Below the pieces are notes generated by a model. That model made no database searches. It saw only the letters and a program-made list of their open reading frames with translations, and had not been told where the DNA came from. A program made the position numbers and the translations under genes. This document shows positions 6,192 through 34,643 of a stretch of DNA of 64,000 nucleotides, one piece after another. The stretch is from Gemmatimonadota bacterium (GTDB lineage Bacteria > Gemmatimonadota > Gemmatimonadetes > Longimicrobiales > Gaopeijiaceae): positions 434,001-498,000 of the forward strand of contig JAUIEJ010000001.1 of assembly GCA_030428885.1 (NCBI GenBank). Direction: 5' to 3'. Numbering within the stretch: position 1 is the stretch's first letter; each line of letters starts with the position of its first letter.

Positions 6192-6401
6192 GGAGTACAC
6201 CTCCGACGGGGGGTTCGTCGATCGCCCCCGGACGGGTGCCGGGGCTCGAGCGGGAGGGATCATGGGTCGGGGAGCGGAGTGCTGGCAAGGGAATTGCTGG
6301 CGCGAACGCCCGGAGCCACCGTATTCTGACGGTCTGTGGGAACCAGGGCGGGGCGTGGCGGGCGGGAGCGAAAACCCTACCCTCGACAACAGAGGTCGTG
6401 T

Positions 6402-8831
6402 ATGAAGGTCGTCGGACTCCTCGCCGGTTTCGGCGCGGTGCTGGTGGCGGCGTCCGTGGAGCCGGGTGCCGCCGGCCCCGGACCGGAGATCCAACCGGCC
6501 ATGGCGTCGTTCCGGGCGCTGTCGCCCGACGAGAGCAACGAGGTCATCGAGGAGTACTGCCAGCGCTGCCACAACGACCGGCGCATGAGTGGCAACATGT
6601 CCCTCGCCGACTTCGACGCGGCCCTGGCCTACGAGCAGGCTCCCACCGCCGAGCGCATGATCCGGAAGCTCCGGGCCGGCATGATGCCGCCCCCGGGCAC
6701 CGAGCGTCCCGACGAGGCCACCCTCCAGGGCCTGGCCACCCAGCTCGAGGCCACCATCGACTCGGCGTCGGCGCTGCGGCCGAACCCCGGGACCCGCACC
6801 TTCCAGCGCCTCAACCAGGCCGAGTACGCGGCGTCGATCCGCGAACTCCTGGCCCTGGACATCGATCCCGAGGGCTACCTGCCCCCGGACACCAAGAGCG
6901 CCAATTTCGACAACATCGCCGACGCCCAGTTGCTGTCGCCGATTCTCATGGACGCCTACCTCAACGCCGCGGCCGAAGTGGCGCGGCTGGCCGTGGGCGA
7001 TCCCGAGGCGATTCCCAGCGAGGCGACCTACAAGGTGCCCCGGCTGGCGTCCCAGACCGAGCACGTGGAGGGCGCGCCCTTCGGCACCCGGGGCGGCATC
7101 AGCGTGGTCCACACCTTCCCTGCCGACGGAGAATACCGGTTCCGGATCCTCCTCCAGCCCACGCCCACCGGCGAACTGTTCGCCCGGACGGCTCGCGACG
7201 AGCGGCTGGAGATCAGCGTGGACGGAGAGCGGGTGGCTCTCCTGGAGATCGACCGCTGGATGTCCCAGTCCGATCCCGACGGCACCGAGATGGAGACCGA
7301 CGTGGTGCCCGTCCGGGCCGGACCCCACCGGATCTCGGCGGCGTTCCTCCCCACCCAGGAAGGGCCCGTCGTCGACGTCCTCTCGCCCATCGGCCACAGC
7401 CTGGCCGACACCCAGATCGGGTTGGCGTACGGCATCACCACCGTGCCCCACCTCCGGGAACTCCGCATCGGGGGGCCCTTCGAGGTGACGGGCGTCTCCG
7501 ACACGCCCAGCCGTCGTGAGGTCTTCCACTGCCGTCCCACCGCCCCCGCCGAAGAGGAGCCCTGCGCGACGCGGATCCTCACCCGCCTCTCCACGAAGGC
7601 GTATCGGCGTCCCGTGGCCGACGACGACCTGGCCGACCTGCTGGCCTTCTACCGCGACGGGCACGCTCAGGGCGGGTTCGAGGCCGGCATCCGCACCGCC
7701 ATCCAGGCCATGCTGGCGAGCCCCCACTTCCTCTTCCGCATCGAGGAGCTGGGCGAGCCCACCGACGTGGACGGGGTCTATGCCCTCACCGGCGTCGACC
7801 TGGCCACCCGCCTGTCGTACTTCCTCTGGGGCGCGCCCCCGGACGGTGAACTCCTGGCGGTGGCCCGGGATGGGCGGCTGGCCGACACCGAGGTCATGGA
7901 GGCCCAGGTGCGCCGCATGCTGGCCGACCCCGCCGCCGAGGCCATGGGCCAGCGGTTCGCGGCCCAGTGGCTGCGCCTGTCGGACATCGAGAAGGTGCAT
8001 CCCGACGCCTTGAAGTACCCGAACTTCGACACCCAGTTGTCGGAGGACATGGTCGAGGAGACGATCCGCTTCTTCAACCATCTGGTCCAGGCCGACGAGA
8101 GCGTCCTCGATCTTCTCACCGCCGACTACAGCTTCGTCAACGAGCGCCTGGCCCGGCACTACGGGATTCCGGGCATCGCCGGCGACGACTTCGAGCAGGT
8201 GTCGTATCCCATGGAGCATCGCCGGGGCCTGCTGGGCCACGGCAGCGTCCTGACCCTGACCTCCCATGCCAACCGCACCTCGCCGGTGCTCCGGGGCAAG
8301 TGGGTCATGGAGGTCCTCCTGGGCACGCCGCCGCCGCCCCCGCCGCCCGACGTTCCCGACCTGGACGCCACCAGCGAGGCGGTGGACGGCCGCTACCTGA
8401 CCGTCCGGGAGCAGATGGAACTGCACCGGTCCAACCCGAGTTGCAACTCGTGCCACTCGGTGATCGATCCCCTGGGCCTGGCCCTGGAGAACTACGACGT
8501 CACCGGCCGCTGGCGCATCAAGGACTCGGGCAACCCCGTGGACGTGCGGGGCGAGCTCTACGACGGCACGCCCCTGAACTCGGTGGAGGATCTCCGTGAG
8601 GCGCTCCTCAAGCGCCCCGAGCCCTTCCTGCGCACGTTCACCGAGAACCTGATGGCCTACGCCCTGGGCCGCCGGGTCGAGTACTACGACATGCCCACGA
8701 TCCGGGCCATCACGCGCCGGGCCGCCGCCGCCGACCATCGGCTCTCGGCCTACATTCTCGGCGTAGTGGACAGCGACGCGTTCCGGCTGAAGGCCGCCGA
8801 CGCAGCCGTGACCGACGCCGCATCCTACTGA
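6402..8831 (+). CDS. DUF1592-family c-type heme protein (DUF1587/1595/1592/1588/1585 architecture)
   Basis: 809 residues from ATG 6402, chosen because a signal peptide (residues 1-24, ending 'VEPGAAG') follows it. CQRCH at 53-57 is a c-type heme site. The central 'FQRLNQAEYAASIRELL' block opens the DUF1587-like region, 'LSTKAYRRPVADDD' and 'LASPHFLFRIE' belong to the DUF1595/DUF1592 core, 'RRGLLGHGSVLTLTSHANRTSPVLRGKW' to DUF1588, and the C-terminus has a second heme site, CNSCH, at about 680-684 followed by 'VIDPLGLALENYD' (DUF1585). These large exported proteins are common in Planctomycetes, Acidobacteria and Gemmatimonadota and nearly always precede a DUF1552 gene, as here. Biochemical function is not established. 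Confidence 0.9.
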   Translation: MKVVGLLAGFGAVLVAASVEPGAAGPGPEIQPAMASFRALSPDESNEVIEEYCQRCHNDRRMSGNMSLADFDAALAYEQAPTAERMIRKLRAGMMPPPGTERPDEATLQGLATQLEATIDSASALRPNPGTRTFQRLNQAEYAASIRELLALDIDPEGYLPPDTKSANFDNIADAQLLSPILMDAYLNAAAEVARLAVGDPEAIPSEATYKVPRLASQTEHVEGAPFGTRGGISVVHTFPADGEYRFRILLQPTPTGELFARTARDERLEISVDGERVALLEIDRWMSQSDPDGTEMETDVVPVRAGPHRISAAFLPTQEGPVVDVLSPIGHSLADTQIGLAYGITTVPHLRELRIGGPFEVTGVSDTPSRREVFHCRPTAPAEEEPCATRILTRLSTKAYRRPVADDDLADLLAFYRDGHAQGGFEAGIRTAIQAMLASPHFLFRIEELGEPTDVDGVYALTGVDLATRLSYFLWGAPPDGELLAVARDGRLADTEVMEAQVRRMLADPAAEAMGQRFAAQWLRLSDIEKVHPDALKYPNFDTQLSEDMVEETIRFFNHLVQADESVLDLLTADYSFVNERLARHYGIPGIAGDDFEQVSYPMEHRRGLLGHGSVLTLTSHANRTSPVLRGKWVMEVLLGTPPPPPPPDVPDLDATSEAVDGRYLTVREQMELHRSNPSCNSCHSVIDPLGLALENYDVTGRWRIKDSGNPVDVRGELYDGTPLNSVEDLREALLKRPEPFLRTFTENLMAYALGRRVEYYDMPTIRAITRRAAAADHRLSAYILGVVDSDAFRLKAADAAVTDAASY

Positions 8832-8860
8832 CCCCCCGCCCCCCGCACGCGAGACCCGCC

Positions 8861-10273
8861 ATGTTCCTCACCGGAAAGCACATTCCCCGTCGCACGTTTC
8901 TTCGGGGCCTCGGCGCCACCATCTCCCTCCCCCTCCTCGACGCCATGACACCGGCGGGGCGGGTCATGGGGCAGATCCGCGCCGAGGCCGACCGCAGCCG
9001 CCTGGTGGCCATCGAGATGGTCCACGGATCGGCGGGCGCCGCGAAGTACGGGCTGGAGAACAACCTCTGGGCCCCGGCCCAGGTGGGGCGTGACTTCGAC
9101 CTCTCGGGGAGCTCCCTGAGTCCCCTCGAGGCCTACCGGAAGGTCATGACCATCGTCTCGAACACCGACGTGCGCATGGCCGAGGCGTTCGAGCCCGAGG
9201 AGATCGGCGGAGACCACTTCCGGTCCAGTGCCGTGTTCCTGACCCAGGCCCGGCCCCATCAGACCGAGGGCTCCGACGTGCGGGTCGGGAAGTCCCTCGA
9301 TCAGATGTTCGCCGACCGCTACGGCCAGACCACACCCATTCCCTCCATGCAGCTCTGCATCGAGCCCGTGGACCAGGCCGGCGGCTGCGCCTACGGCTAC
9401 GCCTGCGTGTACACCGACACCATCAGTTGGGCGTCGGAGACCGAGCCCCTGCCCATGATCCGCGACCCCCGGGTCGTATTCGATCAGCTCTTCGGTGCGG
9501 GGGGCACCGCCGAGCAGCGGGCCCTGCGGCGTCGGACCAACATGAGCATCCTGGACTGGGTCACCCGGGAAGTGGCGGAGCTGAAGCGGGCGGTGGGCAC
9601 CGAGGATCGGCGGCGCATCGATCGCTACCTGGAAAACATCCGGGAGATCGAGCGTCGCATCGAGATGGTGGAGACCCGCAACCGCAGCGGCGAGGTGCGG
9701 GAGCTGCCGTCGGCCCCGGCGGGCGTGCCCGATTCGTTCGAGGAGCACGTCAAGCTGATGTTCGACCTCCAGGCCCTGGCCTTCGCCTCCGACGTGACCC
9801 GGGTGTTCTCGTTCAAGATGGGCCGGGACGGATCGTCCCGGGTCTACCCGGGCAGCGGCGTGGACAAGCCGTTCCACCCCGCGTCGCACCACGGCGACAA
9901 CGAGCAGAACATCATCGACTTCGCCCAGATCAACCGGTACCACGTGGGCATGCTGCCCTACTTCCTGGATCGTCTGGCCGAGATGCAGGAGGGCGACGGC
10001 AGCCTCCTGGACAAGACGACGATCCTCTACGGCTCGCCCATGGGCGACCCCAACGTCCACAACCACAAGCGGTGCCCGCTGGTGGTGCTGGGCGGCACCA
10101 ACGGGGCCCTGGCCGGCGGCGAACACATCCGGGCCGAAGACGGGACCCCCATGGCCAACGTCCTCCTCTCCCTCATGCACCGCATGGGTCTGGAAGACAT
10201 GGAGACCTTCGGCGACAGCACAGGCGAGTTCTCCTTCGGCCAGTCCGGCCTGGTCTCCATGGAGGCCGGATGA
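8861..10273 (+). CDS. DUF1552 family protein, Tat-exported
   Basis: 470 residues. The N-terminus 'HIPRRTFLRGLGATISLPLL' is a textbook twin-arginine signal (Arg10-Arg11), so it is exported folded, often meaning cofactor-loaded. The rest matches DUF1552, a sulfatase-like (DUF1501-related) fold found beside DUF1592 proteins: 'LVAIEMVHGSAG', 'SSAVFLTQARPHQT', 'GKSLDQMFADRYGQ' and a C-terminal 'TTILYGSPMGDPNVHNHKRCPLVVLGG'. It starts 29 bases after the DUF1592 stop and overlaps the ankyrin gene, so the three genes form one operon. Confidence 0.9.
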   Translation: MFLTGKHIPRRTFLRGLGATISLPLLDAMTPAGRVMGQIRAEADRSRLVAIEMVHGSAGAAKYGLENNLWAPAQVGRDFDLSGSSLSPLEAYRKVMTIVSNTDVRMAEAFEPEEIGGDHFRSSAVFLTQARPHQTEGSDVRVGKSLDQMFADRYGQTTPIPSMQLCIEPVDQAGGCAYGYACVYTDTISWASETEPLPMIRDPRVVFDQLFGAGGTAEQRALRRRTNMSILDWVTREVAELKRAVGTEDRRRIDRYLENIREIERRIEMVETRNRSGEVRELPSAPAGVPDSFEEHVKLMFDLQALAFASDVTRVFSFKMGRDGSSRVYPGSGVDKPFHPASHHGDNEQNIIDFAQINRYHVGMLPYFLDRLAEMQEGDGSLLDKTTILYGSPMGDPNVHNHKRCPLVVLGGTNGALAGGEHIRAEDGTPMANVLLSLMHRMGLEDMETFGDSTGEFSFGQSGLVSMEAG

Positions 10274-24331: not shown

Positions 24332-24876
24332 ACACCATGCTGCGAATCCCTGCCGCGGTCCTCCTCTCCGCCGCCCTCCTGGCCCCCTCGGCCGCCGCCG
24401 CCCAGGACTACGACCCCGAGGCCCGCCTGGCCGACCTGGGCATCACCCTGCCCGTTCCCCAGGGGCCCAGTCGCTCCGCCTACGACCGCACGGTCCGGAC
24501 GGGCAACCTGGTCTTCACCGCCGGCCACGCCCCCTGCGGCGAGTGGGAGGGCACGGGTCGGGGCAAGGTGCCCACCGAGGCCAGCCTGGAGGAAGCCCAG
24601 GCCGCGGCCCGTCAGGTGGTGATCTGCATCCTGGGCTCCCTGAAGGCCGAGATCGGCGACCTGAGCCGGGTGACGCGGGTGGTCCGGGTGTTCGGCATGG
24701 TCAACTCGGCCCCCGACTTCACCCAGCAGTCCCAGGTGATGAACGCCGCCAGCGAACTCCTCAACGAGGTCTTCGGCGACCGGGGCCGCCACGTGCGGTC
24801 GGCCGTGGGCATGGCCGCGCTGCCGGTGAACCTGACCGTGGAGATCGAGATGGTCTTCGAGGTGGAGGAAGGCTGA
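24328..24876 (+). CDS. Exported RidA (YjgF/YER057c/UK114) family protein
   Basis: 182 residues from GTG 24328 (overlapping the cyclase stop); ATG 24337 gives nearly the same signal peptide, which ends about residue 24 ('PSAAAAQ'). The RidA fold follows: 'RTGNLVFTAGHAP', 'EAQAAARQVVICILGSLKAEIGDLSRVTRVVRVFGMVN', 'SELLNEVFGDRGRHVRSAVGMAALPVNLTVEIEMVFEV'. Cytoplasmic RidA deaminates reactive enamines. This sequence has 'RGRHVRSAVG' where RidA proper has an arginine that holds the substrate carboxylate, so it resembles the divergent 'RidA-like' subfamilies. Export is unusual but common for this subgroup. Confidence 0.85.
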   Translation: MNTMLRIPAAVLLSAALLAPSAAAAQDYDPEARLADLGITLPVPQGPSRSAYDRTVRTGNLVFTAGHAPCGEWEGTGRGKVPTEASLEEAQAAARQVVICILGSLKAEIGDLSRVTRVVRVFGMVNSAPDFTQQSQVMNAASELLNEVFGDRGRHVRSAVGMAALPVNLTVEIEMVFEVEEG

Positions 24877-25703
24877 CGGGATACACCACCCGCGAGGTTT
24901 CCGAGGTTCTCGGGATTCCGACCGACCGCCTCCGGCGGTGGGCCCGGCAGGGGCTTCTGGAGGCGGCAAAAAGTGCCGACGGCGGGTGGAGGTTCACCTT
25001 TCCCGACATCATTCTGCTGCGGGCCGCCGAGGAACTGCGGGAGGCCGGCGTCTCGGGCCAGCGCATCGCCCGAGCGCTTCGGAGCCTGGCGACCCAGCTT
25101 CCCGCAGGCCGCCCCCTGAGCGCGGTGCGCATCGCCGCCCGGGGCGACGAGGTGCTGGTCCGGGACGCCGACACGGTCTGGGCCCCCGCTACCGAGCAGG
25201 TGGCGTTCGACTTCTCCGTGGGCGAACTCGCCTCCCGGGTCGAACCGTTCGCCGCCCGCATGGCCCGGGAGCGCGAGGCCGCCGGCGACATGGGTGCCGA
25301 CGACTGGTACGACCTGGGCTTCGACCTGGAGGCCGTGTCCATGGTCGAGGCGAAACGGGCCTATGCCGAGGCATTGCGCCTCGATCCGGGGCATCCCGAC
25401 GCCCTGGTGAACATGGGACGCCTCCGTCACGAGGAAGGTGACCCGGCCGGTGCCGAGGCCCGGTATCGGGCGGCCCTGGCCACCGATCCGCATCACGCCG
25501 TGGCACGCTTCAACCTCGGCGTCGCCCTGGAGGACCAGGGCCGGACCGAGGCCGCCATCGTCGCCTATCGCCGCGCCATCGGTGGCGATCCGGGTCTTCC
25601 CCAGGCCCACTTCAATCTGGCCCGACTCCTGGAACGGGCCGGCGACGTGCAGGGGGCCGTGCGCCATCTGGCGGCCTATCGGCGCCTCCGGGAGACGGGC
25701 TGA
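24873..25703 (+). CDS. MerR-type HTH regulator fused to TPR repeats
   Basis: The frame starts inside the RidA stop region. The HTH begins 'YTTREVSEVLGIPTDRLRRWARQGLL', so the start must lie just upstream of 24879. No ATG, GTG or TTG is available there; CTG at 24873, behind GGAGGAAGG, is the best choice, giving 276 residues. Residues 1-70 are a MerR/Xre-like winged helix ('ADGGWRFTFPDIILLRAAEELREAGVSGQRI'). A middle segment of unknown role (about 75-150) leads to three or four TPR units (about 155-270, 'AYAEALRLDPGHPDALVNMGRL'). Family members act as one-component regulators. It directly precedes the riboswitch-led operon. Confidence 0.75.
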   Translation: MTGYTTREVSEVLGIPTDRLRRWARQGLLEAAKSADGGWRFTFPDIILLRAAEELREAGVSGQRIARALRSLATQLPAGRPLSAVRIAARGDEVLVRDADTVWAPATEQVAFDFSVGELASRVEPFAARMAREREAAGDMGADDWYDLGFDLEAVSMVEAKRAYAEALRLDPGHPDALVNMGRLRHEEGDPAGAEARYRAALATDPHHAVARFNLGVALEDQGRTEAAIVAYRRAIGGDPGLPQAHFNLARLLERAGDVQGAVRHLAAYRRLRETG

Positions 25704-25806: not shown

Positions 25807-25893
25807 GGAGCCCGTAGCGGCAAACCGTCGGTGACGGCGGGACGCAAAGCCAGGGGTCCCTCGGAAGAGGGATGGCCCGGTTGCCGGGATTCC
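25807..25893 (+). ncRNA. Cyclic-di-GMP-I (GEMM-I) riboswitch aptamer
   Basis: The GEMM-I core is present. P1 can form between GGAGCCC (25807-25813) and GGGATTCC (25886-25893). CAAACC is followed by a stem CCGTCG/CGGCGG closed by a GTGA (GNRA) tetraloop, then the invariant GACGCAAAGCC, a P3 stem (GGGGTCCCTC...GAGGGATGGCCC) with the receptor region, and GGTTGCCG. Aligned to the Vibrio Vc2 aptamer, the ligand-contacting position equivalent to G20 reads G, which favours c-di-GMP over cGAMP (A20 in Geobacter cGAMP switches). It lies 111 bases before the multiheme cytochrome operon. Identification is by eye against the known consensus. Confidence 0.92.
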
Positions 25894-25955
25894 AGGCCGG
25901 AGGCGCTCGATGCGGGCGCCCCCCGACGGGGTCCTCACGAACCGTGAAGACACCC

Positions 25956-25984
25956 GGCCGCACGCCCTCCCGTGCGGCCTTTCC
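25956..25984 (+). terminator. Terminator-like hairpin, probable riboswitch expression platform
   Basis: A perfect 9-base-pair stem, GGCCGCACG with CGTGCGGCC (25956-25964 and 25971-25979), six-base loop CCCTCC, then TTT. It lies 62 bases after the aptamer and 20 bases before the first start codon, with AGGAG (25989-25993) immediately downstream. This position suits ligand-controlled termination. The T-tract is short, so it may need a helper factor or act on translation instead. Whether c-di-GMP turns the operon on or off cannot be told from the sequence. Confidence 0.7.
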
Positions 25985-26003
25985 AGACAGGAGAACAAAC
26001 GAC

Positions 26004-26855
26004 GTGCTCGCGACGGTTCTCGCGGTCCTGTGGATCGGGATCGCCGGGTGGGTCACGTGGTCCGGGTTGGATTTCTACCTCCTTCCCCTGGATCAGCGTG
26101 CCTATTCCCCCTTGTTCGACCAATGGGGCCCCACCGGGTTGTGGGGCCAGGGACTGGGCATCGTGGGGACCGCCATGATGACCCTCGGGGTCGTGGGCTA
26201 CATGGTGCGGAAACGGGTCGGCGTCCTGCAGTCGGCCGGCTCCCTCCGGCATTGGCTCCAGGTGCACATCTTCCTCTGCACCCTCGGGCCCTACTTCGTG
26301 ATGCTGCATACGACCTTCAAGTTCGGCGGCATCATCTCCGTGGCGTTCTGGAGCATGGCCGTGGTCGTGGCCAGCGGCGTCTTCGGACGCTACGTCTACG
26401 CCCGGATTCCCAAGACCATCCAGGGTCGATTCCTCGATCTCGAGGCGGTGATCGAGCGGAGTCGGGCCCTGGTGGACACGCTCCACGAACGGACCGGAAT
26501 CGCCGCCGACGAGATCCGCGCCCTCCTCGAGGGCGACCCGGTTCCGGCTCGCGCCCCCGGGCTGGTGGGGTCCCTGGCCCTGGCCGTGCGGTCCGACGTC
26601 GAAGGTCGCCGCACCCGCCGGGAAGTGCGGCGGTTTCTTCGGGCCCGATCGGTTCCCGCCGACCTCCACGCCGGGTTCATCGATCTCGCGGCCCAGCAGC
26701 ACCGGCTGCGGCGGCAGGCGCTCCTCCTCCACCCGTTCCAGCGCCTCTTCCGGTACTGGCACGTCGTCCATCTGCCCCTCGCGGTCACCATGTTCGTGAT
26801 CCTCGCGGTGCACGTGGCGGTGGCCGTGGCGTTCGGCTACACCTGGATCTTCTGA
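26004..26855 (+). CDS. Inner-membrane b-type cytochrome-like protein of the multiheme operon
   Basis: 283 residues from GTG 26004, with AGGAG 10 bases upstream; longer in-frame starts would fall inside the riboswitch. Four to five transmembrane helices: about 1-20, 45-68, 83-105, 110-135 and a C-terminal one (about 255-280). Histidines placed for heme ligation occur in 'HWLQVHIFL', 'FVMLHTTFKFG', 'YWHVVHLPLAV' and 'ILAVHVAVAV', suggesting up to two b-hemes. A cytoplasmic charged stretch (about 145-235) separates the helices. By position it would take electrons from the quinol pool and pass them to the periplasmic cytochromes. I do not recognise a named family with certainty. Confidence 0.7.
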   Translation: MLATVLAVLWIGIAGWVTWSGLDFYLLPLDQRAYSPLFDQWGPTGLWGQGLGIVGTAMMTLGVVGYMVRKRVGVLQSAGSLRHWLQVHIFLCTLGPYFVMLHTTFKFGGIISVAFWSMAVVVASGVFGRYVYARIPKTIQGRFLDLEAVIERSRALVDTLHERTGIAADEIRALLEGDPVPARAPGLVGSLALAVRSDVEGRRTRREVRRFLRARSVPADLHAGFIDLAAQQHRLRRQALLLHPFQRLFRYWHVVHLPLAVTMFVILAVHVAVAVAFGYTWIF

Positions 26856-26857
26856 CC

Positions 26858-27457
26858 ATGCCGTCCTCCGCCCGCCTCCCCCTCGCCCTGTCCCTCGTTC
26901 TCGGACTGGCCATCTCGGGGGTGCTGTATGCCCGGCGCGCCGGGGGACCGGAGTCCGCCCCGGACGATCCGGCGGCGGCCGCCGCCCGGGCCCACGAGGC
27001 CGCCGGGGTCGTGGTGGGCGACGTGGGGCCCGTGGCCCCGGGCTTCCAGGCCCGGATCGACTCCCTCACCGCCCGCATGGAGTCCGCCCCGGACGATCTC
27101 GACCGGGTGCTCGAACTCGCCCGGTTGCTCCACGATGGGCATCGCCCCGACGAGGCCGTCCCCCTCTACCGGCGCGCCCAGGAACTCGAGCCCGGCCGGG
27201 CCGAGGTCACCTACGATCTGGCCGCGGCTCTTTCGGCGGCCGGCGACGGGGAGGGGGCCTCCGACGTCCTGCGGCGCCGGCTGGACGACGTCCCCGACGA
27301 CGCCGTCGCCATGTACAACCTGGGGGCGCTCCGGGCCAACGCCGGGGACACGGAGGGGGCTCGCCGGTGGTTCGACCGCGCGGTGACCACCACGTCGGAC
27401 GGCGCCCTCCGGGCCCGGGCCCGGGAAGCGCTGGACCGTCTCGGAGGCGACCGGTGA
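26858..27457 (+). CDS. TPR protein of the multiheme operon (NrfG/CcmH-like)
   Basis: 199 residues, starting two bases after the previous stop. An N-terminal signal anchor (about 5-25, 'LALSLVLGLAISGVLYA') is followed by three or four TPR units (about 70-195: 'RVLELARLLHDGHRPDEAVPLYRRAQELEPGRAEVTYDLAAAL', 'AVAMYNLGALRANAGDTEGARRWFDRAV'). Anchored TPR proteins of this size resemble NrfG/CcmI, which hold apocytochromes during heme attachment. With 51 heme sites encoded in the next two genes, a role as an apocytochrome or assembly chaperone is plausible. This is inference from context. Confidence 0.75.
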   Translation: MPSSARLPLALSLVLGLAISGVLYARRAGGPESAPDDPAAAAARAHEAAGVVVGDVGPVAPGFQARIDSLTARMESAPDDLDRVLELARLLHDGHRPDEAVPLYRRAQELEPGRAEVTYDLAAALSAAGDGEGASDVLRRRLDDVPDDAVAMYNLGALRANAGDTEGARRWFDRAVTTTSDGALRARAREALDRLGGDR

Positions 27458-28968
27458 TGGGGGCCCGGAGAGCCTCCATCGGCGTCTTCCTCGCCGCGAC
27501 GGCGACCCTGTTCGCCGCGTCGCCGGCGGCCGCTCAGTTGATCTCTCCGGGCAAGCTCGCGGCGCCCCACGCCGAACTCGAGGGGATCCGCAACTGCACC
27601 CGATGCCACCAGCTCGGGCGGCGCGGCGTGAGCCGGGATCTCTGCCTGGACTGCCACACCCCCCTCGGCGCCCGTCTGACTCGCGACGAGGGCTTCCACG
27701 CCTCGCTGGCCGAGCCCGACTGCGCCTCGTGCCACAAGGACCACTTCGGCGTGGAGTTCGAGTTGGTGAAGCTCGACACCCTCGCCTTCGATCACGATCG
27801 CACCGGTCACGTCCTGGAAGGTGCCCACGCCGAGGCCGGCTGCCGGACCTGCCACACCCCGTCGGCCGTGGCCGACCCCGAGGTGCGCCGCGTCAAGGCC
27901 GAGCGGGGGGGCCTGGATCGGACGTTCCTCGGTCTGGCCACCCGGTGCCTCGACTGCCACGCGGGGGACGATCCCCACGCCGGCACCTTCCCCGGTCAGG
28001 CATGCACCGACTGCCACGACCAGACCGACTGGGCGGGGGCCGACGGCTTCGACCACGCCGACACTTCCTACCCCCTCACGGGCCGGCACCGGGCGGCCGA
28101 TTGCACCGGATGCCACGTGAACCTGCCGGCCCGGGGCGCCGGAGACGGGTGGGGTCCCGACGTGGAGCTTCGATTCGACGGGGTTCTCGCCGGGGCCTGC
28201 ACCGACTGTCACGCCGCCGACGATCCCCACGGCGGAGCCATGACCGGTCCCTGTTCGTCGTGCCATGCCACGTCCGGGTGGCGAGGCGTGGACCGCCGCC
28301 GGGTGGAATCGAGCTTCGATCACACCACGACCGGGTTCGATCTGATCGGCGCCCACGGCGCCCTGGAGTGCGCCTCGTGCCACGACGCGGCCGCTGCCGG
28401 CCGCCTCGACGGCATCGCCCTCACCTTCGATCCCGCGAGCCGAGGTCACGCCTTCCCTCCCCCGGCCTCCGACCGATGCATGGCGTGTCACGTCGACCGC
28501 CACGAGGGCCTCTTCGACGACCGTCCGGGTGGTCCGGAATGCGCCGAGTGCCACGGTGTGGCGGAGTGGTTGCCCGCCGACTACGACCTCACCCGCCACA
28601 ACGCCGAGGCCGCCTTCCGTCTGGAAGGATCCCACGCGGTCGTCCCGTGCGTCACCTGCCACGAGACGCCCGACGGCGCTCTGCGCTTCGACATCGGGGT
28701 GCCGGACGGCTGCGCCACCTGTCACGCGGTGGACGATCCCCACGGGGAGCAGTTCGCCGACCGCACGTGTGATTCCTGCCACGGGATCGACGCGTTCACC
28801 CCGGTGGCCGTCGATCACGACGCCACCCGCTATCCCCTCGACGGAGCCCACGCGGACCTCGACTGCGCCTCCTGCCATCGGGCCGAGCCCGACGGGGCGG
28901 GGGGCACCCGGATCCGCTATCGACCCCTGGGCACCGAGTGCCGCGATTGCCACGGAGGTACCCCGTGA
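27457..28968 (+). CDS. 17-heme c-type cytochrome, exported
   Basis: 503 residues; the ATG overlaps the TPR stop (TGATG). A signal peptide (1-26, ending 'AASPAAAQ') is followed by 17 CXXCH motifs counted through the whole length, starting at 'NCTRCHQ' and ending at 'ECRDCHGG'. Between them are repeated distal-histidine patterns ('FDHADTSYPLTGRH', 'FDHTTTGFDLIGAH', 'DHDATRYPLDGAH') that would give bis-histidine hemes. The fold resembles the NapC/cytochrome c3-like class III multiheme family. Expected location is the periplasm, bridging inner and outer membranes. The stop overlaps the next GTG by four bases, so translation is coupled. Confidence 0.93.
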   Translation: MGARRASIGVFLAATATLFAASPAAAQLISPGKLAAPHAELEGIRNCTRCHQLGRRGVSRDLCLDCHTPLGARLTRDEGFHASLAEPDCASCHKDHFGVEFELVKLDTLAFDHDRTGHVLEGAHAEAGCRTCHTPSAVADPEVRRVKAERGGLDRTFLGLATRCLDCHAGDDPHAGTFPGQACTDCHDQTDWAGADGFDHADTSYPLTGRHRAADCTGCHVNLPARGAGDGWGPDVELRFDGVLAGACTDCHAADDPHGGAMTGPCSSCHATSGWRGVDRRRVESSFDHTTTGFDLIGAHGALECASCHDAAAAGRLDGIALTFDPASRGHAFPPPASDRCMACHVDRHEGLFDDRPGGPECAECHGVAEWLPADYDLTRHNAEAAFRLEGSHAVVPCVTCHETPDGALRFDIGVPDGCATCHAVDDPHGEQFADRTCDSCHGIDAFTPVAVDHDATRYPLDGAHADLDCASCHRAEPDGAGGTRIRYRPLGTECRDCHGGTP

Positions 28969-31628
28969 CCCTCCCCCTCCTCTTCCGCCCGCTTCGGGGC
29001 GCCCTGGGGGCGGCCACGGCATGGCTCGCCCTGGCGGCCTCGGGCTTCCTCGCTCCGGTGGCCGCCCAGGAGAATCCCCACGGGCCCCTGCCCGGGGACC
29101 TGGACTGCGCGGCGTGCCACACGCCGGCGGGGTGGGCGCCGCTCCGGCCCGACCTCCAGTTCACCCATGGCGGGCTCCGGGGATTCGAGCTGACCGGTGC
29201 CCACGCCGAGGCCACCTGCGCCTCGTGTCACCTCGATCTGCGGTTCGACGGCCCCACGGTGAGTGCCGCGGACTGCGGAGGCTGCCACGTCGACGTCCAC
29301 GACGGTCAGCTCCTGAACGACTGCGCCTCCTGCCACGACACCGACAGCTTCCGGGACGTCGACGGCTCCCTGGTGCACGCCCTCACGGCCCTGCCCCTCG
29401 ACGGTGCCCATCTGGAAGTGCCGTGTGAGGGCTGTCACGCCGATGAAGGTCGCGGGCTCTACACGGGCCTCGACCCCGACTGTGCCGCCTGCCACCGCAA
29501 CGCCTTCGAGTCCGCCGAGACCGTCGACCACGTGGCCGCCGGCTACCCGACGGATTGTACCCAGTGTCACACGGCGTTGGGATGGTCCGATGCGCCGTTG
29601 TTCGACCACCTGGCGGCCTCCGACGGTTTCGGCCTTCTCGGCGCCCACCGGGAGGTCCAGTGCGCCTCGTGTCACGTCGTGCCGGGAATGGCGCCCATCT
29701 TCGACGCGGCCGGCCCCGACGACTGCGTGGCGTGCCACCAGGTCGATTTCGACCGCGAGCATCCCGGGTCCGACTTCTCGACCGATTGCACGATCTGCCA
29801 CACCGTCGACGAGTGGAGCGTCACCGACTTCGACCACGACCTCACGGGCTTCGATCTGCTGGGGGCCCACGCGCCTCTGGACTGCGGCGATTGCCATACG
29901 AACGGGCACCGGGGACTCTGGTTCGACACCCCCGCCGACGAGCAGGACTGCGTCGTGTGTCATCAGGCCGACTACGACGAGGAACACGCCGGCACCGGGT
30001 TCCCCCTCGAGTGTGCGTCCTGCCACACCGTCGACGACTGGGAAGACGCCGAGTTCGATCACGGTGACACGAACTTCCCCCTCGTCGGTCGCCACGCCGA
30101 CGAGGATTGCACGATCTGCCACGGTCCGGGAGGCACCCTCGTGGTCCCCCGACCGTCGGGCCCCCAGGACTGCGTGTCCTGCCATCAGGCCGACTACGAC
30201 GATGAGCACGCGGGCTCGGGTTTTCCCACGAACTGCCTCGACTGCCACGACCAGAACGACTGGGACGACGCGACCATCGACCACCCGGCCATGGCCAACG
30301 GCTTCGAGCTGCTCGGTCGTCATGCCCAGGCCGAGTGCGCCAGTTGCCACACCACGCCCGACTTCGGCCTCCATTGGGCGGCCCCCTCGGGTCAGAACGA
30401 CTGCGTGGTGTGCCACCAGACCGACTACGACGGCGAGCACGCCGGTACGGGCTTCCCCCTGGACTGCGCGTCCTGCCACGCCGAGACCACCTGGGAGGGG
30501 GCGACCTTCGACCACGGCGACACCGGCTTCCCGCTGAGGGGCGCCCACGACGCGGCCGACTGCGCCACCTGCCACGCCGACGGGGGCACCCTGGTGGTTC
30601 CCCAGCCGACGGGCCCCGACGACTGCGTGTCGTGCCACCAGACCGACTACGACGGGGAGCACGCCGGGTCGGGCTTCCCCTCGAGCTGTCTGGACTGCCA
30701 CACCGAGACCACCTGGGAGGGGGCGACCTTCGACCACGCCACCACCGGCTTCCCGCTGAGGGGGGCCCACGACGCGGCCGACTGCGCGACCTGCCACGGA
30801 GACGGGGGCACCCTGGTGGTTCCCCAGCCCTCGGGCCCCGACGACTGCGTGTCGTGCCACCAGACGGACTACGACGGCGAGCACGCCGGCACCAGCATCC
30901 CCACGAGCTGTCTCGACTGCCACTCGGAGACGACCTGGGAGGGCGCCACCTTCGACCACGCCTCCACCGGCTTCCCGCTCGTGGGGGCCCACGACGCCGC
31001 CGACTGTGCGACGTGCCACGGTGACGGCGGCACGCTGGTGGTGCCCCAGCCCTCGGGTCCCGACGACTGCGTGACCTGTCACCAGCTCGAGTACGACGGC
31101 GAGCACGGAGGGTCGGGGCTGCCCACCACCTGCCTGGACTGCCACAGCCAGACCACGTGGGAAGGCGCCACGTTCGACCACGGGACCACGGGCTTCGCCC
31201 TCGTGGGGGCCCACGACGCGGCCCAGTGCGCGTCGTGCCACGTGATTCCCGGGTACGCGCTCCACACGGGAACCCCGTCGTTCCAGGACGACTGCGTGGC
31301 GTGCCACCAGACCGACTACGACGGGGAGCACGCCGGGAGCGGGTATCCGAACACCTGTCTGGTCTGCCACGATCAGACCGCCTGGGACAACTCGAGCTTC
31401 GATCACGACGCCCAGTACTTCCCGATCTTCTCGGGCAAGCACCGCACGGAGTGGGGCAACCAGTGCTCCACGTGCCACACCGACCCCCTCGACTACGCCG
31501 TCTTCACCTGCATCGACTGCCACGAGCACCGACAGTCGAAGGCCGATGATCAGCACAAGGACGAGTCGGGATACGCGTGGGACAGCGCCGCCTGCTACTC
31601 CTGCCACGCCAACGGGAGAAGCGAATGA
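28965..31628 (+). CDS. 34-heme c-type cytochrome with tandem three-heme repeats
   Basis: 887 residues. GTG 28965 overlaps the previous stop and has GGAGG seven bases upstream. A signal peptide ends about residue 35 ('FLAPVAAQ'). I count 34 CXXCH sites; there is no transmembrane helix or lipobox. From 29721 the gene is made of eight tandem units of 222-231 bases (74-77 residues), each with three CXXCH and three more conserved histidines (in 'DGEH', 'FDH' and 'GAH'), a set sufficient for three bis-His hemes. Such linear arrays conduct electrons over long distances in metal-reducing bacteria. It is probably the extracellular or porin-embedded conductor; heme loading is not proven. Confidence 0.93.
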   Translation: MTLPLLFRPLRGALGAATAWLALAASGFLAPVAAQENPHGPLPGDLDCAACHTPAGWAPLRPDLQFTHGGLRGFELTGAHAEATCASCHLDLRFDGPTVSAADCGGCHVDVHDGQLLNDCASCHDTDSFRDVDGSLVHALTALPLDGAHLEVPCEGCHADEGRGLYTGLDPDCAACHRNAFESAETVDHVAAGYPTDCTQCHTALGWSDAPLFDHLAASDGFGLLGAHREVQCASCHVVPGMAPIFDAAGPDDCVACHQVDFDREHPGSDFSTDCTICHTVDEWSVTDFDHDLTGFDLLGAHAPLDCGDCHTNGHRGLWFDTPADEQDCVVCHQADYDEEHAGTGFPLECASCHTVDDWEDAEFDHGDTNFPLVGRHADEDCTICHGPGGTLVVPRPSGPQDCVSCHQADYDDEHAGSGFPTNCLDCHDQNDWDDATIDHPAMANGFELLGRHAQAECASCHTTPDFGLHWAAPSGQNDCVVCHQTDYDGEHAGTGFPLDCASCHAETTWEGATFDHGDTGFPLRGAHDAADCATCHADGGTLVVPQPTGPDDCVSCHQTDYDGEHAGSGFPSSCLDCHTETTWEGATFDHATTGFPLRGAHDAADCATCHGDGGTLVVPQPSGPDDCVSCHQTDYDGEHAGTSIPTSCLDCHSETTWEGATFDHASTGFPLVGAHDAADCATCHGDGGTLVVPQPSGPDDCVTCHQLEYDGEHGGSGLPTTCLDCHSQTTWEGATFDHGTTGFALVGAHDAAQCASCHVIPGYALHTGTPSFQDDCVACHQTDYDGEHAGSGYPNTCLVCHDQTAWDNSSFDHDAQYFPIFSGKHRTEWGNQCSTCHTDPLDYAVFTCIDCHEHRQSKADDQHKDESGYAWDSAACYSCHANGRSE
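29721..31512 (+). repeat. Eight tandem 222-231 bp repeats inside the 34-heme cytochrome gene
   Basis: Each unit begins at GACTGCGT (the 'DDCVxCHQ' motif) at 29721, 29946, 30168, 30399, 30621, 30843, 31065 and 31290. Spacings are 225, 222, 231, 222, 222, 222 and 225 bases. The units at 30399, 30621 and 30843 are nearly identical in DNA, including silent positions, which points to recent unequal crossing-over or ongoing gene conversion; outer units are more diverged. The unit length stays a multiple of three, so gain or loss of a unit would add or remove exactly three hemes. Confidence 0.9.
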
Positions 31629-33310
31629 GAATCGGGTCCGGCGTGGCCGCCTGGATGGTCGCCGCCACCCTCGCCGGGGCGCCGGTGGACCTTCACGCCC
31701 AGGACCCCGCACCGGGGCCTCGGGTCGAAGCCCGGGTGCGGCAGGTGGCGGGCTCCACGATCTACGTCGACCTGGGCACGGACCACGGTCTGGCCGTGGG
31801 CGACACGCTGGACGTCTCCCGCCGCGGCGCCGACACCGTCGTCGGGCGACTGACCGTGGCGGTGGCGAGTCCGGTCCGGTCGGTGCTTTCGTTCGCCGGG
31901 GCGGCCTTCTCGGTGACCCGGGGCGAAGTCCTGGCGTTCGGGCTGCTGCGAGCCCCCTCGGTCGAACCGCCTCCCGTCGACGAACCGGCGGAGGCCCCCG
32001 AGCCGGCGGCCGGGCGCTCTCGGGCCGGCGCCTCGCAAGCCGGGGCGGAGCCCGTCGAGGGCGGGAGCGACGACCCGTCGCCCCCGGGCGCCGCCTCCGC
32101 CGCCCCGGTCCGGGCCCCGAGGGTCCCGGCCGTGCCCGCGAGCGGTCGCTGGTCGCTGGAGATGGCCGTGAATCGCTCGAGTTCGGAGGTGGGCACCGAG
32201 GTCGATCCGGTGGAGATCTCCCGCACCTTCGCCACGCCCGCGCTGCGACTCGATCTACGGGCGCCCGGGGCCGTGGGGGGCTTCGACCTGCGCCTCAGTA
32301 CGCGCACGACGTACCGCTACGGCACCGACCCGGGCTTCGACCCCACCTGGTCTCCCCGGGTCTACGAGGCGTCACTGGAGCGCCGGTTCGAAGGGGCCCC
32401 GGTGCACCTCGTCCTGGGGCGATTCCACTCTCCGGGGGAGTCGTTCAGCGGCTACTGGGACGGCGCCTCATTGCGCCTCGGGGGCAAGGGATTCGGCGTG
32501 GGAGCCATAGCCGGACTCCAGCCCGATCGATGGAACCAGCTCCCCACGGCCGACCTCCCCAAGGCGTCGGTGTTCATGGACTTCGACAGGAACGGCGAAG
32601 GGGTGCGTTGGCTCGGCGACGTGTCCGCCCACGTGGCGTGGCCCAGCGACGGCGCCCCCACCCATACGTGGTTCGGGTTCGGACAGCGGGTGTCCACCGA
32701 CCGACTCCGCCTGCGGCAGGAGGTCCAGGTCGATCGCGACCCGTTCGAGGGGGGTCTCCACCTCTCCCTCCTCACCGCGCGGGCCTCCTTCGCGGCGTCC
32801 CCGGCCTTCGACGTGCGAGCCGGCGTCTCCCGTCGGGAAACCTACCTGGTCTGGGCGTTGGACGGAGACGACCTCTTCTCATCGCGGCGGGACCGGGCCG
32901 ACGTCGGCGTCTCGATCCGGGGCGGCGGTCGCTACTGGTCCACCGACGTCGGGCTGAACCGCGACGTGGCGGGCAACGTCACCCGCTCCGTCACGTCGTC
33001 GTTCTCTGCTCCCCGGGTCGCCGGGAGCGTGGGCTTCCTCGCCTCGGCGTCGTGGTGGGACGGCGACACGGGCCATGCCCTCTCGATGGCTCCTTCCCTG
33101 TCGTGGCGGTGGGGTTCGGCCCGCCTCCGCACGGGCTATCGGTTCTACTCCTCCGACGTTCTCGGTCGGGCCCGCACCACCCATTCGCCCGACGTCTCCA
33201 TCGACGTACCCTTCTCCGGGGGCGTCCGAGCGACCCTGCGAATGCGGGGACGGTGGGGCGACGCGGTGCGGAGCGAGTTCGTGCAGTTCAATCTCAGTCG
33301 CGTCTTCTGA
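31625..33310 (+). CDS. Outer-membrane beta-barrel (porin-like) partner of the multiheme cytochromes
   Basis: 561 residues; ATG overlaps the 34-heme stop (ATGA). A signal peptide ends about residue 26 ('VDLHAQ'). Residues about 30-110 form a small beta domain ('STIYVDLGTDHGLAVGDTLDVSRRG', resembling the FlgT C-terminal fold), then a Pro/Ala/Glu linker (about 115-175). From about 180 there are alternating amphipathic strands with aromatic girdles, and the protein ends 'FVQFNLSRVF', with the C-terminal phenylalanine required by the BAM machinery. In porin-cytochrome systems such a barrel sheathes a multiheme cytochrome across the outer membrane. The sequence shows a barrel; the specific role rests on operon position. 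Confidence 0.8.
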   Translation: MRIGSGVAAWMVAATLAGAPVDLHAQDPAPGPRVEARVRQVAGSTIYVDLGTDHGLAVGDTLDVSRRGADTVVGRLTVAVASPVRSVLSFAGAAFSVTRGEVLAFGLLRAPSVEPPPVDEPAEAPEPAAGRSRAGASQAGAEPVEGGSDDPSPPGAASAAPVRAPRVPAVPASGRWSLEMAVNRSSSEVGTEVDPVEISRTFATPALRLDLRAPGAVGGFDLRLSTRTTYRYGTDPGFDPTWSPRVYEASLERRFEGAPVHLVLGRFHSPGESFSGYWDGASLRLGGKGFGVGAIAGLQPDRWNQLPTADLPKASVFMDFDRNGEGVRWLGDVSAHVAWPSDGAPTHTWFGFGQRVSTDRLRLRQEVQVDRDPFEGGLHLSLLTARASFAASPAFDVRAGVSRRETYLVWALDGDDLFSSRRDRADVGVSIRGGGRYWSTDVGLNRDVAGNVTRSVTSSFSAPRVAGSVGFLASASWWDGDTGHALSMAPSLSWRWGSARLRTGYRFYSSDVLGRARTTHSPDVSIDVPFSGGVRATLRMRGRWGDAVRSEFVQFNLSRVF

Positions 33311-33320
33311 CGAGTTCGTG

Positions 33321-34643
33321 ATGGATCCGGCCCTCCTGGAAAACCCGCTGGTGTTCTGGCTTCTGGCGGGACTGCTCACGGCGGTGGTCTCGCTGCCCTT
33401 CGTGCTCCATGCCCGGCGGAAGGAGCTCGAAACCATCGAGGCCCGTGAGGAGGCGTCGCGCTACGGCCTGGACATCCCCGCGAGCCTTCATCCCGTGGTG
33501 GATCCGGGGGGGTGCATCGGCATCTCCAACTGCGTGAAGGTCTGCCCCGAAGACGTACTGGGCATCGAACACGGGCAGGCGGTGGCGGTGCGGCCGGCCC
33601 GCTGCATCGGCCACGGGCTCTGCGAGCGCGTGTGCCCCGTCGACGCGATCCAGCTCGTATTCGGCACGGCCACCCGGGGCGTCGAGCTGCCCCGGATCAA
33701 GGAGAACTTCGAGACCAACGTCGAAGGGATCTACGTGGTGGGAGAGCTGGGGGGCATGGGGCTGGTGGCCAACGCCTTCGAGCAGGGACGGCAGTGCATC
33801 GAGGGCATCGTGAAGGAGTCCGCGAAGGGTCCGCCGGGCATCGCCGACCTCATCATCGTGGGGTGCGGACCCGCGGGGCTGTCCGCCTCCCTCACCGCCC
33901 TCCACCACGGCATGACGTTCCTGACCCTGGAGAAGGAGGACGTGGGCGGCACCGTGGCCCACTACCCCCGCAAGAAGTTGGTCATGACGCGGCCCGTGAA
34001 GGTGCCGGGCTACGGCAAGCTCTCCTTCCGTGAGGTGCGGAAGGAAGAGCTCATGGGCGTCTGGCAGGACGTCATCGACCGCTCGGGGCTCGAGGTCCTC
34101 ACCGGCGAAACCGTCGAGGGCATCCAGAAGGTCGGGCGCCACCACTTCCGGGTGGTGTCCAGCGGCGGCACGTACGAGGCCGCCCGGGTGATCCTGGCCA
34201 TCGGCCGGCGGGGCGTCCCCCGCAAGCTCGGGGTGCCGGGGGAGGCGGCCCCCCACGTGCAGTACTCGCTCCGGGAGCCCGAGGTGTACAAGGGGGAGCG
34301 GGTCCTGGTGGTGGGTGGCGGCGACTCGGCCGTGGAGGCCGCTCTCGCCCTGGCCGACCAGCCCGACACCGAGGTGCGCATGTCGTACCGCCGCGAGGCC
34401 TTCAACCGCATCAAGCCCGGCAACTTCGACCGCATCGCCCGGGCCCAGGACGACGGGGCGGTGGAGGTACTCTGGCGGTCCAACACCACGCGCATCGAAC
34501 CCGAGGCGGTGCACCTGGAACTCGAGGAAGAGGCCGTCGCCGTCCCCGCCGACCAGGTCTTCATCTTCGCCGGGGGCGTGCTCCCCACGGCCTTCCTCCG
34601 CAACTGCGGAATCCAGATCGAGACGAAGTTCGGGCAGCCCTGA
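33321..34643 (+). CDS. Membrane-anchored ferredoxin-like/FAD/NAD(P)-binding oxidoreductase
   Basis: 440 residues from ATG 33321, ten bases after the barrel gene. A transmembrane helix (about 9-30) comes first. Two ferredoxin-like motifs follow (about 55-105), 'CIGISNCVKVCP' and 'CIGHGLCERVCP'; each has three cysteines in C-x5-C-x3-CP spacing and lacks the second cysteine of a normal 4Fe-4S motif (Ile and His instead). Then a thioredoxin-reductase-like part: FAD-binding 'DLIIVGCGPAGLSASL' and NAD(P)-binding 'VLVVGGGDSAVEAALAL', ending 'GIQIETKFG'. No redox CxxC of thioredoxin reductase is seen. It could connect NAD(P)H with the membrane cytochrome. Confidence 0.85.
   Translation: MDPALLENPLVFWLLAGLLTAVVSLPFVLHARRKELETIEAREEASRYGLDIPASLHPVVDPGGCIGISNCVKVCPEDVLGIEHGQAVAVRPARCIGHGLCERVCPVDAIQLVFGTATRGVELPRIKENFETNVEGIYVVGELGGMGLVANAFEQGRQCIEGIVKESAKGPPGIADLIIVGCGPAGLSASLTALHHGMTFLTLEKEDVGGTVAHYPRKKLVMTRPVKVPGYGKLSFREVRKEELMGVWQDVIDRSGLEVLTGETVEGIQKVGRHHFRVVSSGGTYEAARVILAIGRRGVPRKLGVPGEAAPHVQYSLREPEVYKGERVLVVGGGDSAVEAALALADQPDTEVRMSYRREAFNRIKPGNFDRIARAQDDGAVEVLWRSNTTRIEPEAVHLELEEEAVAVPADQVFIFAGGVLPTAFLRNCGIQIETKFGQP

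Follow-up and report, generated by a model that had tools for sequence, protein, structure and literature searches.

A c-di-GMP-I riboswitch aptamer precedes a predicted PCC3-like porin-multiheme cytochrome operon in a Gemmatimonadota bacterium

The riboswitch leader and the six genes behind it

We analyzed a window of 64,000 nucleotides from a Gemmatimonadota bacterium of the family Gaopeijiaceae (assembly GCA_030428885.1, contig JAUIEJ010000001.1, positions 434,001 to 498,000; coordinates below count from the first base of this window). It carries a riboswitch aptamer of the cyclic di-GMP (c-di-GMP)-I or GEMM-I family, followed by six genes, here numbered g1 to g6, for an inner-membrane protein (IMP), a tetratricopeptide repeat (TPR) protein, two multiheme cytochromes (MHCs), a beta-barrel and an Fe-S/flavin oxidoreductase (Table 1). 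The initial annotation, made from the sequence, had described this arrangement as an aptamer-led porin-multiheme cytochrome operon. The junctions between the genes (2, −1, −4, −4 and 10 bases) are exactly those it gave, and the sequence analysis confirms the compact gene set with its leading aptamer.

Table 1. Features of the riboswitch leader and the operon (TM, transmembrane helix; AF2, AlphaFold2).
Feature	Position	Strand	Evidence or motifs
c-di-GMP-I (GEMM-I) riboswitch aptamer	25809-25888	+	RF01051 covariance match
GC hairpin, 9-bp stem, 6-base loop, then TTTCC; terminator-like, possible expression platform	25956-25979	+	
Shine-Dalgarno-like AGGAG of g1	25990-25994	+	Sequence; inside a small predicted hairpin directly after the GC hairpin
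g1, inner-membrane protein, 283 aa, 5 predicted TM	26004-26855	+	Two HX13H pairs (H88/H102, H256/H270), SGXXG
g2, membrane-anchored TPR protein, 199 aa	26858-27457	+	TPR_19 7.7e-11, N-terminal TM
g3, 17-heme c-type cytochrome, 503 aa, signal peptide	27457-28968	+	17 CXXCH, Cytochrome_C7 1.3e-21
g4, 34-heme c-type cytochrome, 887 aa	28965-31628	+	34 CXXCH, Cytochrome_C7 1.1e-37
g5, outer-membrane beta-barrel, 22 predicted strands (173-560), small N-terminal beta domain	31625-33310	+	AF2 model
g6, membrane-anchored Fe-S (Fer4-type) and FAD/NAD(P) oxidoreductase, 440 aa	33321-34643	+	Pyr_redox_3 2.7e-41, Fer4 3e-8

The aptamer was the only above-threshold Rfam match found by cmscan in the whole window (RF01051, 64.9 bits, E 2e-10; gathering threshold 35 bits), as the annotation had predicted. 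The match covers model positions 1-87 of 87, and all 22 aptamer pairs are standard. Its other details were also recovered: the P2 loop is GUGA (GNRA type), the core is GGACGCAAAGCC, and the base directly 5' of CAAACC is a G, which by our count is at the G20 position of Vc2. Such a G20-type aptamer points to c-di-GMP rather than cyclic GMP-AMP (cGAMP) as the ligand. The hairpin downstream (GGCCGCACG-CCCTCC-CGTGCGGCC, then TTTCC) is the sole perfect stem of at least 9 bp on the plus strand of the 64 kb to have three or more T among the five bases that follow it. No sigma-70-type promoter was found upstream of the aptamer by the promoter scan. The product of the gene just 5' of the riboswitch (24873-25703) is a fusion of a MerR-type DNA-binding domain and TPR repeats.

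The AF2 model of g1 (mean predicted local distance difference test score, pLDDT, 87.8) contains helices at residues 2-20, 46-71, 81-102 and 110-132 and a long helix at 219-276, the end of which forms the fifth TM. These helix positions place the histidine pairs on TM3 (W84..H88..H102) and TM5 (W252..H256..H270) and the SGXXG motif, SGVFG 124-128, on TM4. Residues W84, H88, H102, S124, G125, G128, W252, H256 and H270 were invariant in 30 homologues. No significant relative of g1 was found in Pfam, NCBIfam or PDB, Pfam giving only a non-significant DUF6713. The description of g1 as cytochrome b-like thus lacks a Pfam match but gains from the four invariant histidines in their two pairs, and g1 is probably a two-heme cytochrome b of the IMP type described below for PCC3 clusters.

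The remaining proteins are as annotated (Table 1). The TPR protein g2 also matches TPR_CcmH_CycH (1.1e-6, below the cut-off of that model) and possibly handles apocytochrome c. The CXXCH counts of g3 and g4 agree with the 17 and 34 hemes claimed, at 29.6 and 26.1 residues per heme, respectively; both are of the c7/c3 type, g3 probably being a periplasmic wire and g4 an outer or extracellular one. Within g4, a tandem array (30397-31242) consists of 3.8 copies of a 222-bp unit encoding 74 residues and three hemes, with 83% matches; gain or loss of such repeats probably changes the heme number of g4 by three at a time. For g5, which has no Pfam match, the barrel assignment is upheld by the AF2 model (mean pLDDT 80, most of the barrel above 90) and by fold matches to outer-membrane barrels (Z 17-20), among them TonB-dependent receptors, which have 22 strands; MtrB is absent among the fold matches listed, which is uninformative either way.

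In g6, TM 4-32 is followed by two Fe-S motifs (residues 65-106) and a flavin adenine dinucleotide (FAD) domain nearest to the YpdA/thioredoxin reductases, with 7a7b (YpdA/Bdr) as the closest solved structure (3e-52). The second Fe-S motif reads C-x2-H-x2-C-x3-C-P, in which a His replaces a Cys and is invariant in 21 of 21 sequences from several phyla; this suggests a His-ligated or a 3Fe-4S cluster. In the first motif, the second Cys is retained in many other phyla but lost in the lineage of the window.

Comparison with PCC3 and other electron conduits

PCC3 clusters encode a porin, an extracellular MHC (median 34 hemes), a periplasmic MHC (median 21 hemes) and an IMP, with 22-39 residues per heme, and are known from Sideroxydans, Leptothrix and other Proteobacteria, including iron oxidizers (He et al. 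2017, PMC5566968). The IMP has about 300 residues and five TM; TM4 carries SGXXG, and TM3 and TM5 each carry WX3HX13H, motifs described for PCC3/PCC4 IMPs (PMC5566968). In strain CL21, one PCC3 IMP gene rose with iron oxidation (PMC12442390). The present operon resembles them in every part of this core. The barrel gene adjoins the MHC genes, g5 overlapping g4 by 4 bases; the two MHCs carry many hemes at a similar spacing; and g1, with its 283 residues and five TM, has SGXXG (124) and WX3HX13H (84, 252) on the corresponding helices. The initial annotation had held the composition to match neither MtrCAB nor the Geobacter Pcc sets; that of the four-protein core is nevertheless a known one. Unlike the four-gene PCC3, however, the operon adds g2 and g6, lies in another phylum, has a riboswitch leader and encodes a barrel of 22 strands, smaller than many of the PCC3 porins, which have up to 42 transmembrane regions. 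We therefore call the operon PCC3-like, not PCC3 itself, since g2 and g6 are extra and its placement is by protein features.

The conduit assignment has to be weighed against a role of the giant cytochromes in charge storage or in periplasmic redox reactions or detoxification. Neither g3 nor g4 carries a lipobox, their localization is predicted from signal peptides, and capacitor-like roles have been suggested for PCC3. We nevertheless regard this role as improbable, because the conserved neighborhood with an outer-membrane barrel is a hallmark of conduits that cross the outer membrane.

With MtrCAB and MtoAB the operon shares a porin and MHCs crossing the outer membrane, but MtrA and MtrC are decahemes, against the 17 and 34 hemes of g3 and g4, which score 23.9 and 48.2 bits with the MtrA/DmsE-family model TIGR03508 (cut-off 192.2). 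In gene clusters of cave metagenome-assembled genomes (MAGs), a porin, an MHC and a ferredoxin-NADP-reductase-type gene also stand together, but these clusters center on large decahemes, and neither a 17-/34-heme pair nor a riboswitch is reported there (PMC13264449). The leader recalls Geobacter, in which the OmcAHG, PgcA and OmcST genes lie behind GEMM-I switches and the ligand cGAMP turns cytochrome genes on (PMC6456294). Unlike the G20-type aptamer of the window, many of the Geobacter switches are cGAMP-selective (GEMM-Ib), and the window operon is of another type that includes an inner-membrane entry. In the literature searched, from which subscription journals are largely absent, PCC3 was not linked to Gemmatimonadota, and riboswitches were linked to porin-cytochrome systems only for Geobacter or Geobacter/Shewanella.

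Distribution of the cassette and origin of the riboswitch

Across 84,980 species genomes, 80 loci were detected; they belong to Gemmatimonadota, Rhodothermota/Bacteroidota, Acidobacteriota, Neomarinimicrobiota, Latescibacterota, Eisenbacteria, Nitrospinota, Bdellovibrionota and Chloroflexi. Two main gene orders were observed, g1-g6-g3-g4-g5 and the window type g1-g2-g3-g4-g5-g6; the latter recurs also in Rhodothermota. Both g1 and g6 were seen in 51 loci and were adjacent among the operon genes in 39. The larger cytochrome of one locus (L133) has 64 CXXCH motifs. A cultured carrier is the Bacteroidota strain Emticicia oligotrophica DSM 17448, in which the set lies on plasmid pEMTOL02 (EMTOL_RS21090-RS21110), adjoins a CcsA gene, and comprises an IMP, an NAD(P)-binding protein, 23-heme and 40-heme cytochromes and, in the barrel position, a 538-residue hypothetical protein without significant similarity to g5. 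At this locus (L198, 2996-5446 and 5818-8904) the operon stands behind the CcsA gene and a divergent sigma-factor/beta-barrel/Rieske/YceI group. Matches to g1 on proteobacterial plasmids were rejected as PCC3, being related IMPs in other clusters: sets of a 2Fe-2S protein, an IMP and a c3-type cytochrome (7 hemes where counted) and, in Sphingobium, decahemes with an FAD/Fe-S protein.

The aptamer was surveyed by Rfam scans of the operon loci among L036-L075 and by a covariance search of 81 named loci. Besides the window, it precedes the operon only in two other Gemmatimonadota, SZUA-318 (L112/L118) and ALJrbin.25 (L119); the pairing that had been annotated for the window thus recurs. L112 and L118 are taken as one contig, each measuring 51,578 bases and carrying the same operon. 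The training set of the covariance model includes the window and L112, and its sole fresh match was L119; Rfam supports all three independently. L112/L118 scores 57 bits with RF01051, and the L119 aptamer (9784-9871) matches best the variant family RF03167 (c-di-GMP-I-GGC, 61.2 bits), the other two operons matching RF01051 best. The idea that the riboswitch belongs to the conserved make-up of the system was rejected, as among the loci surveyed only these operons share the aptamer with the window.

In a g1 tree of 68 rows, the window, L112/L118 and L119 form one group that requires a single change in 100% of the bootstrap trees (support 99/50, the SH-aLRT (Shimodaira-Hasegawa approximate likelihood-ratio test) value being weak). 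The riboswitch is therefore apparently a late addition to the cassette, of single origin and confined to a single clade. The g1 proteins of L112/L118 and L119 are 60-61% identical to that of the window. Identity of L118 and L119 to the window is 76-78% in the aptamer, 30-49% in the rest of the leader and 14-31% upstream. Since the aptamer is best conserved while the leader diverges, selection acts on the aptamer and leaves the expression platform free to change.

GEMM-I is a common element of the phylum, occurring in 150 of 298 Gemmatimonadota genomes. Among the 30 best loci of 30 genomes, none had a CXXCH-rich multiheme gene directly downstream, several having no called downstream gene, and GEMM-I mostly precedes genes for secreted or surface proteins; other GEMM-I switches of the phylum were rejected as cytochrome leaders on these 30 loci. 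Several Gemmatimonadota carry paired GEMM-I aptamers within about 200 bases on one strand (G232:C121, G111:C77, G002:C3), like the tandem switches of Geobacter. The genome of the window has two other GEMM-I aptamers, both on the reverse complement and neither near a cytochrome: one (L034, near 2995) precedes a 1113-residue FN3-like lipoprotein and then a polymerase/ligase-like membrane protein (a polysaccharide-type gene), and one (L035, near 3115) precedes a 432-residue gene resembling a phosphotransferase. The genome also has six GGDEF matches, cytochrome c assembly/maturation genes and several heme-copper oxidases. With the GGDEF matches and the aptamer before the FN3-repeat lipoprotein, a link of the operon to biofilm signaling is plausible. 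Elsewhere in the window (6336-10273), a PSD/PSCyt-type protein (DUF1592/1588/1585/1595/1587) lies beside a DUF1552 protein, a pair that we presume to be associated with Planctomycetes-style genomes.

Electron entry, direction of flow and control by c-di-GMP

From protein features and structural models, it is fairly probable that the operon encodes a PCC3-like conduit for electrons across the envelope and that c-di-GMP gates its expression via the 5' riboswitch. In the proposed pathway, g6 would lie on the cytoplasmic side according to the positive-inside rule and exchange electrons with NAD(P)H or ferredoxin. It would pass electrons to two b-type hemes in g1, with H88/H256 on the cytoplasmic side and H102/H270 on the periplasmic side, and the region 133-250 of g1, by its charge distribution, would face the cytoplasm. 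From g1 the electrons would be handed to g3, which would span the periplasm and meet both g5, the barrel, and g4, whose 34 hemes would extend to the outside; g2 would help to handle the apocytochromes. Binding of c-di-GMP would act at the region of the leader hairpin, on either transcription or translation. By analogy with the cGAMP switches of Geobacter and with a surface-attached lifestyle, we somewhat favor c-di-GMP as an ON signal.

The usual position of g6 beside g1 makes NAD(P)H or ferredoxin a possible source of the electrons. We tentatively propose that g1 and g6 form a split transmembrane module resembling NADPH oxidase, which would connect the NAD(P)H/ferredoxin pool to the giant-cytochrome wire and bypass quinones; such a module would be widespread in the FCB (Fibrobacteres-Chlorobi-Bacteroidetes) group and Acidobacteriota, with c-di-GMP riboswitch control in one Gemmatimonadota branch. 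As g1 has no match to PF01794 (ferric reductase-like transmembrane domain), the likeness to NADPH oxidase is a functional analogy only. Entry from quinol at g1 is also possible. The conduit would then be fed from the quinol pool by g1 as a cytochrome b-type quinol oxidase, and g6 would be an accessory for maturation, redox sensing or repair, an alternative to which we give serious weight, somewhat below even. The PCC3 IMPs have been proposed as quinone-active b cytochromes (He et al. 2017, PMC5566968), the proteobacterial PCC3 clusters are described without g6, and in some Acidobacteriota loci (L145, L146, L158) g6 was not seen beside g1; NarI, a quinol-oxidizing two-heme b subunit, is in the fold-match list of g1, but at a background Z of 4.5-5.0. 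Against this, g6 is conserved and usually adjoins g1 across phyla, the large and probably cytoplasmic helical region of g1 (133-250) could dock g6, and no quinone-site motif was identified in g1. The quinol-to-surface pathway of the initial annotation was thus an assumption, given that the Fe-S/FAD/NAD(P) partner g6 could feed g1 from the cytoplasm.

Outward flow is slightly favored over inward flow. Electron uptake, with Fe(II), Mn(II) or another cell as the donor and the inner membrane or NAD(P)+ as the recipient, would fit the occurrence of PCC3 in iron oxidizers, a homologous operon in a MAG labeled Mn-Gemmatimonadetes-2 (L123) and the heme-copper oxidases of the genome, from which the organism is probably an aerobe. 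On the other side, both PCC3 clusters of Sideroxydans lithotrophicus ES-1 are downregulated on Fe(II) (PMC8788666), and direction is not encoded in the sequence; we hold uptake to be conceivable, if somewhat doubtful.

Several points weigh against a c-di-GMP-gated PCC3-like conduit. One is the response of ES-1 just cited, and PCC3 function is still unproven, even in Sideroxydans. The fold search with g1 gave no significant match to a solved cytochrome b. The cassette is patchy: 40 of 298 Gemmatimonadota genomes have g1, and of 121 genomes of the family 6 have g6, which the 5 other genomes of the genus all lack; these congeners without g6 indicate that the gene set is dispensable for the lineage. 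The conduit can do without a riboswitch, which most relatives of the operon lack. The hairpin that had been annotated as terminator-like is real, with its perfect 9-bp stem, but its U-tract is weak (UUUCC) and the terminator scan did not call it; by the usual rule it is a poor intrinsic terminator. Its pairs form at a probability above 0.93 each whether or not the aptamer is imposed, so that thermodynamic folding shows no switch and no ligand-dependent alternative fold of the leader hairpin.

These last results also bear on whether the aptamer, real as it is, regulates the operon in a meaningful way: it could be vestigial or act only on a short attenuated transcript, in line with the lack of an alternative fold, the poorly conserved leader 3' of it and its absence from almost all operon relatives. 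The core of the aptamer, however, is kept in three operons in which the flanks have diverged and g1 is far from identical, and in L119 the aptamer is followed by a long GC hairpin and then a U-rich stretch. A non-regulating aptamer is in our view unlikely, and gating of the operon by c-di-GMP is preferred.

In conclusion, control of extracellular electron transfer by a second-messenger riboswitch is a Geobacter story in the literature searched, and the operon described here would be a separate case in another phylum and with another type of conduit, in which one RNA leader precedes the whole path from the inner membrane to the surface. The loci found suggest that PCC3-like conduits extend well beyond Proteobacteria, and E. 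oligotrophica DSM 17448 offers a cultured organism carrying the cassette. The conserved g6 is a candidate for electron entry into PCC3-type conduits. The most valuable parts of the finding are this conserved g1-g6 entry module and the separate gain, apparently of single origin, of second-messenger riboswitch control.

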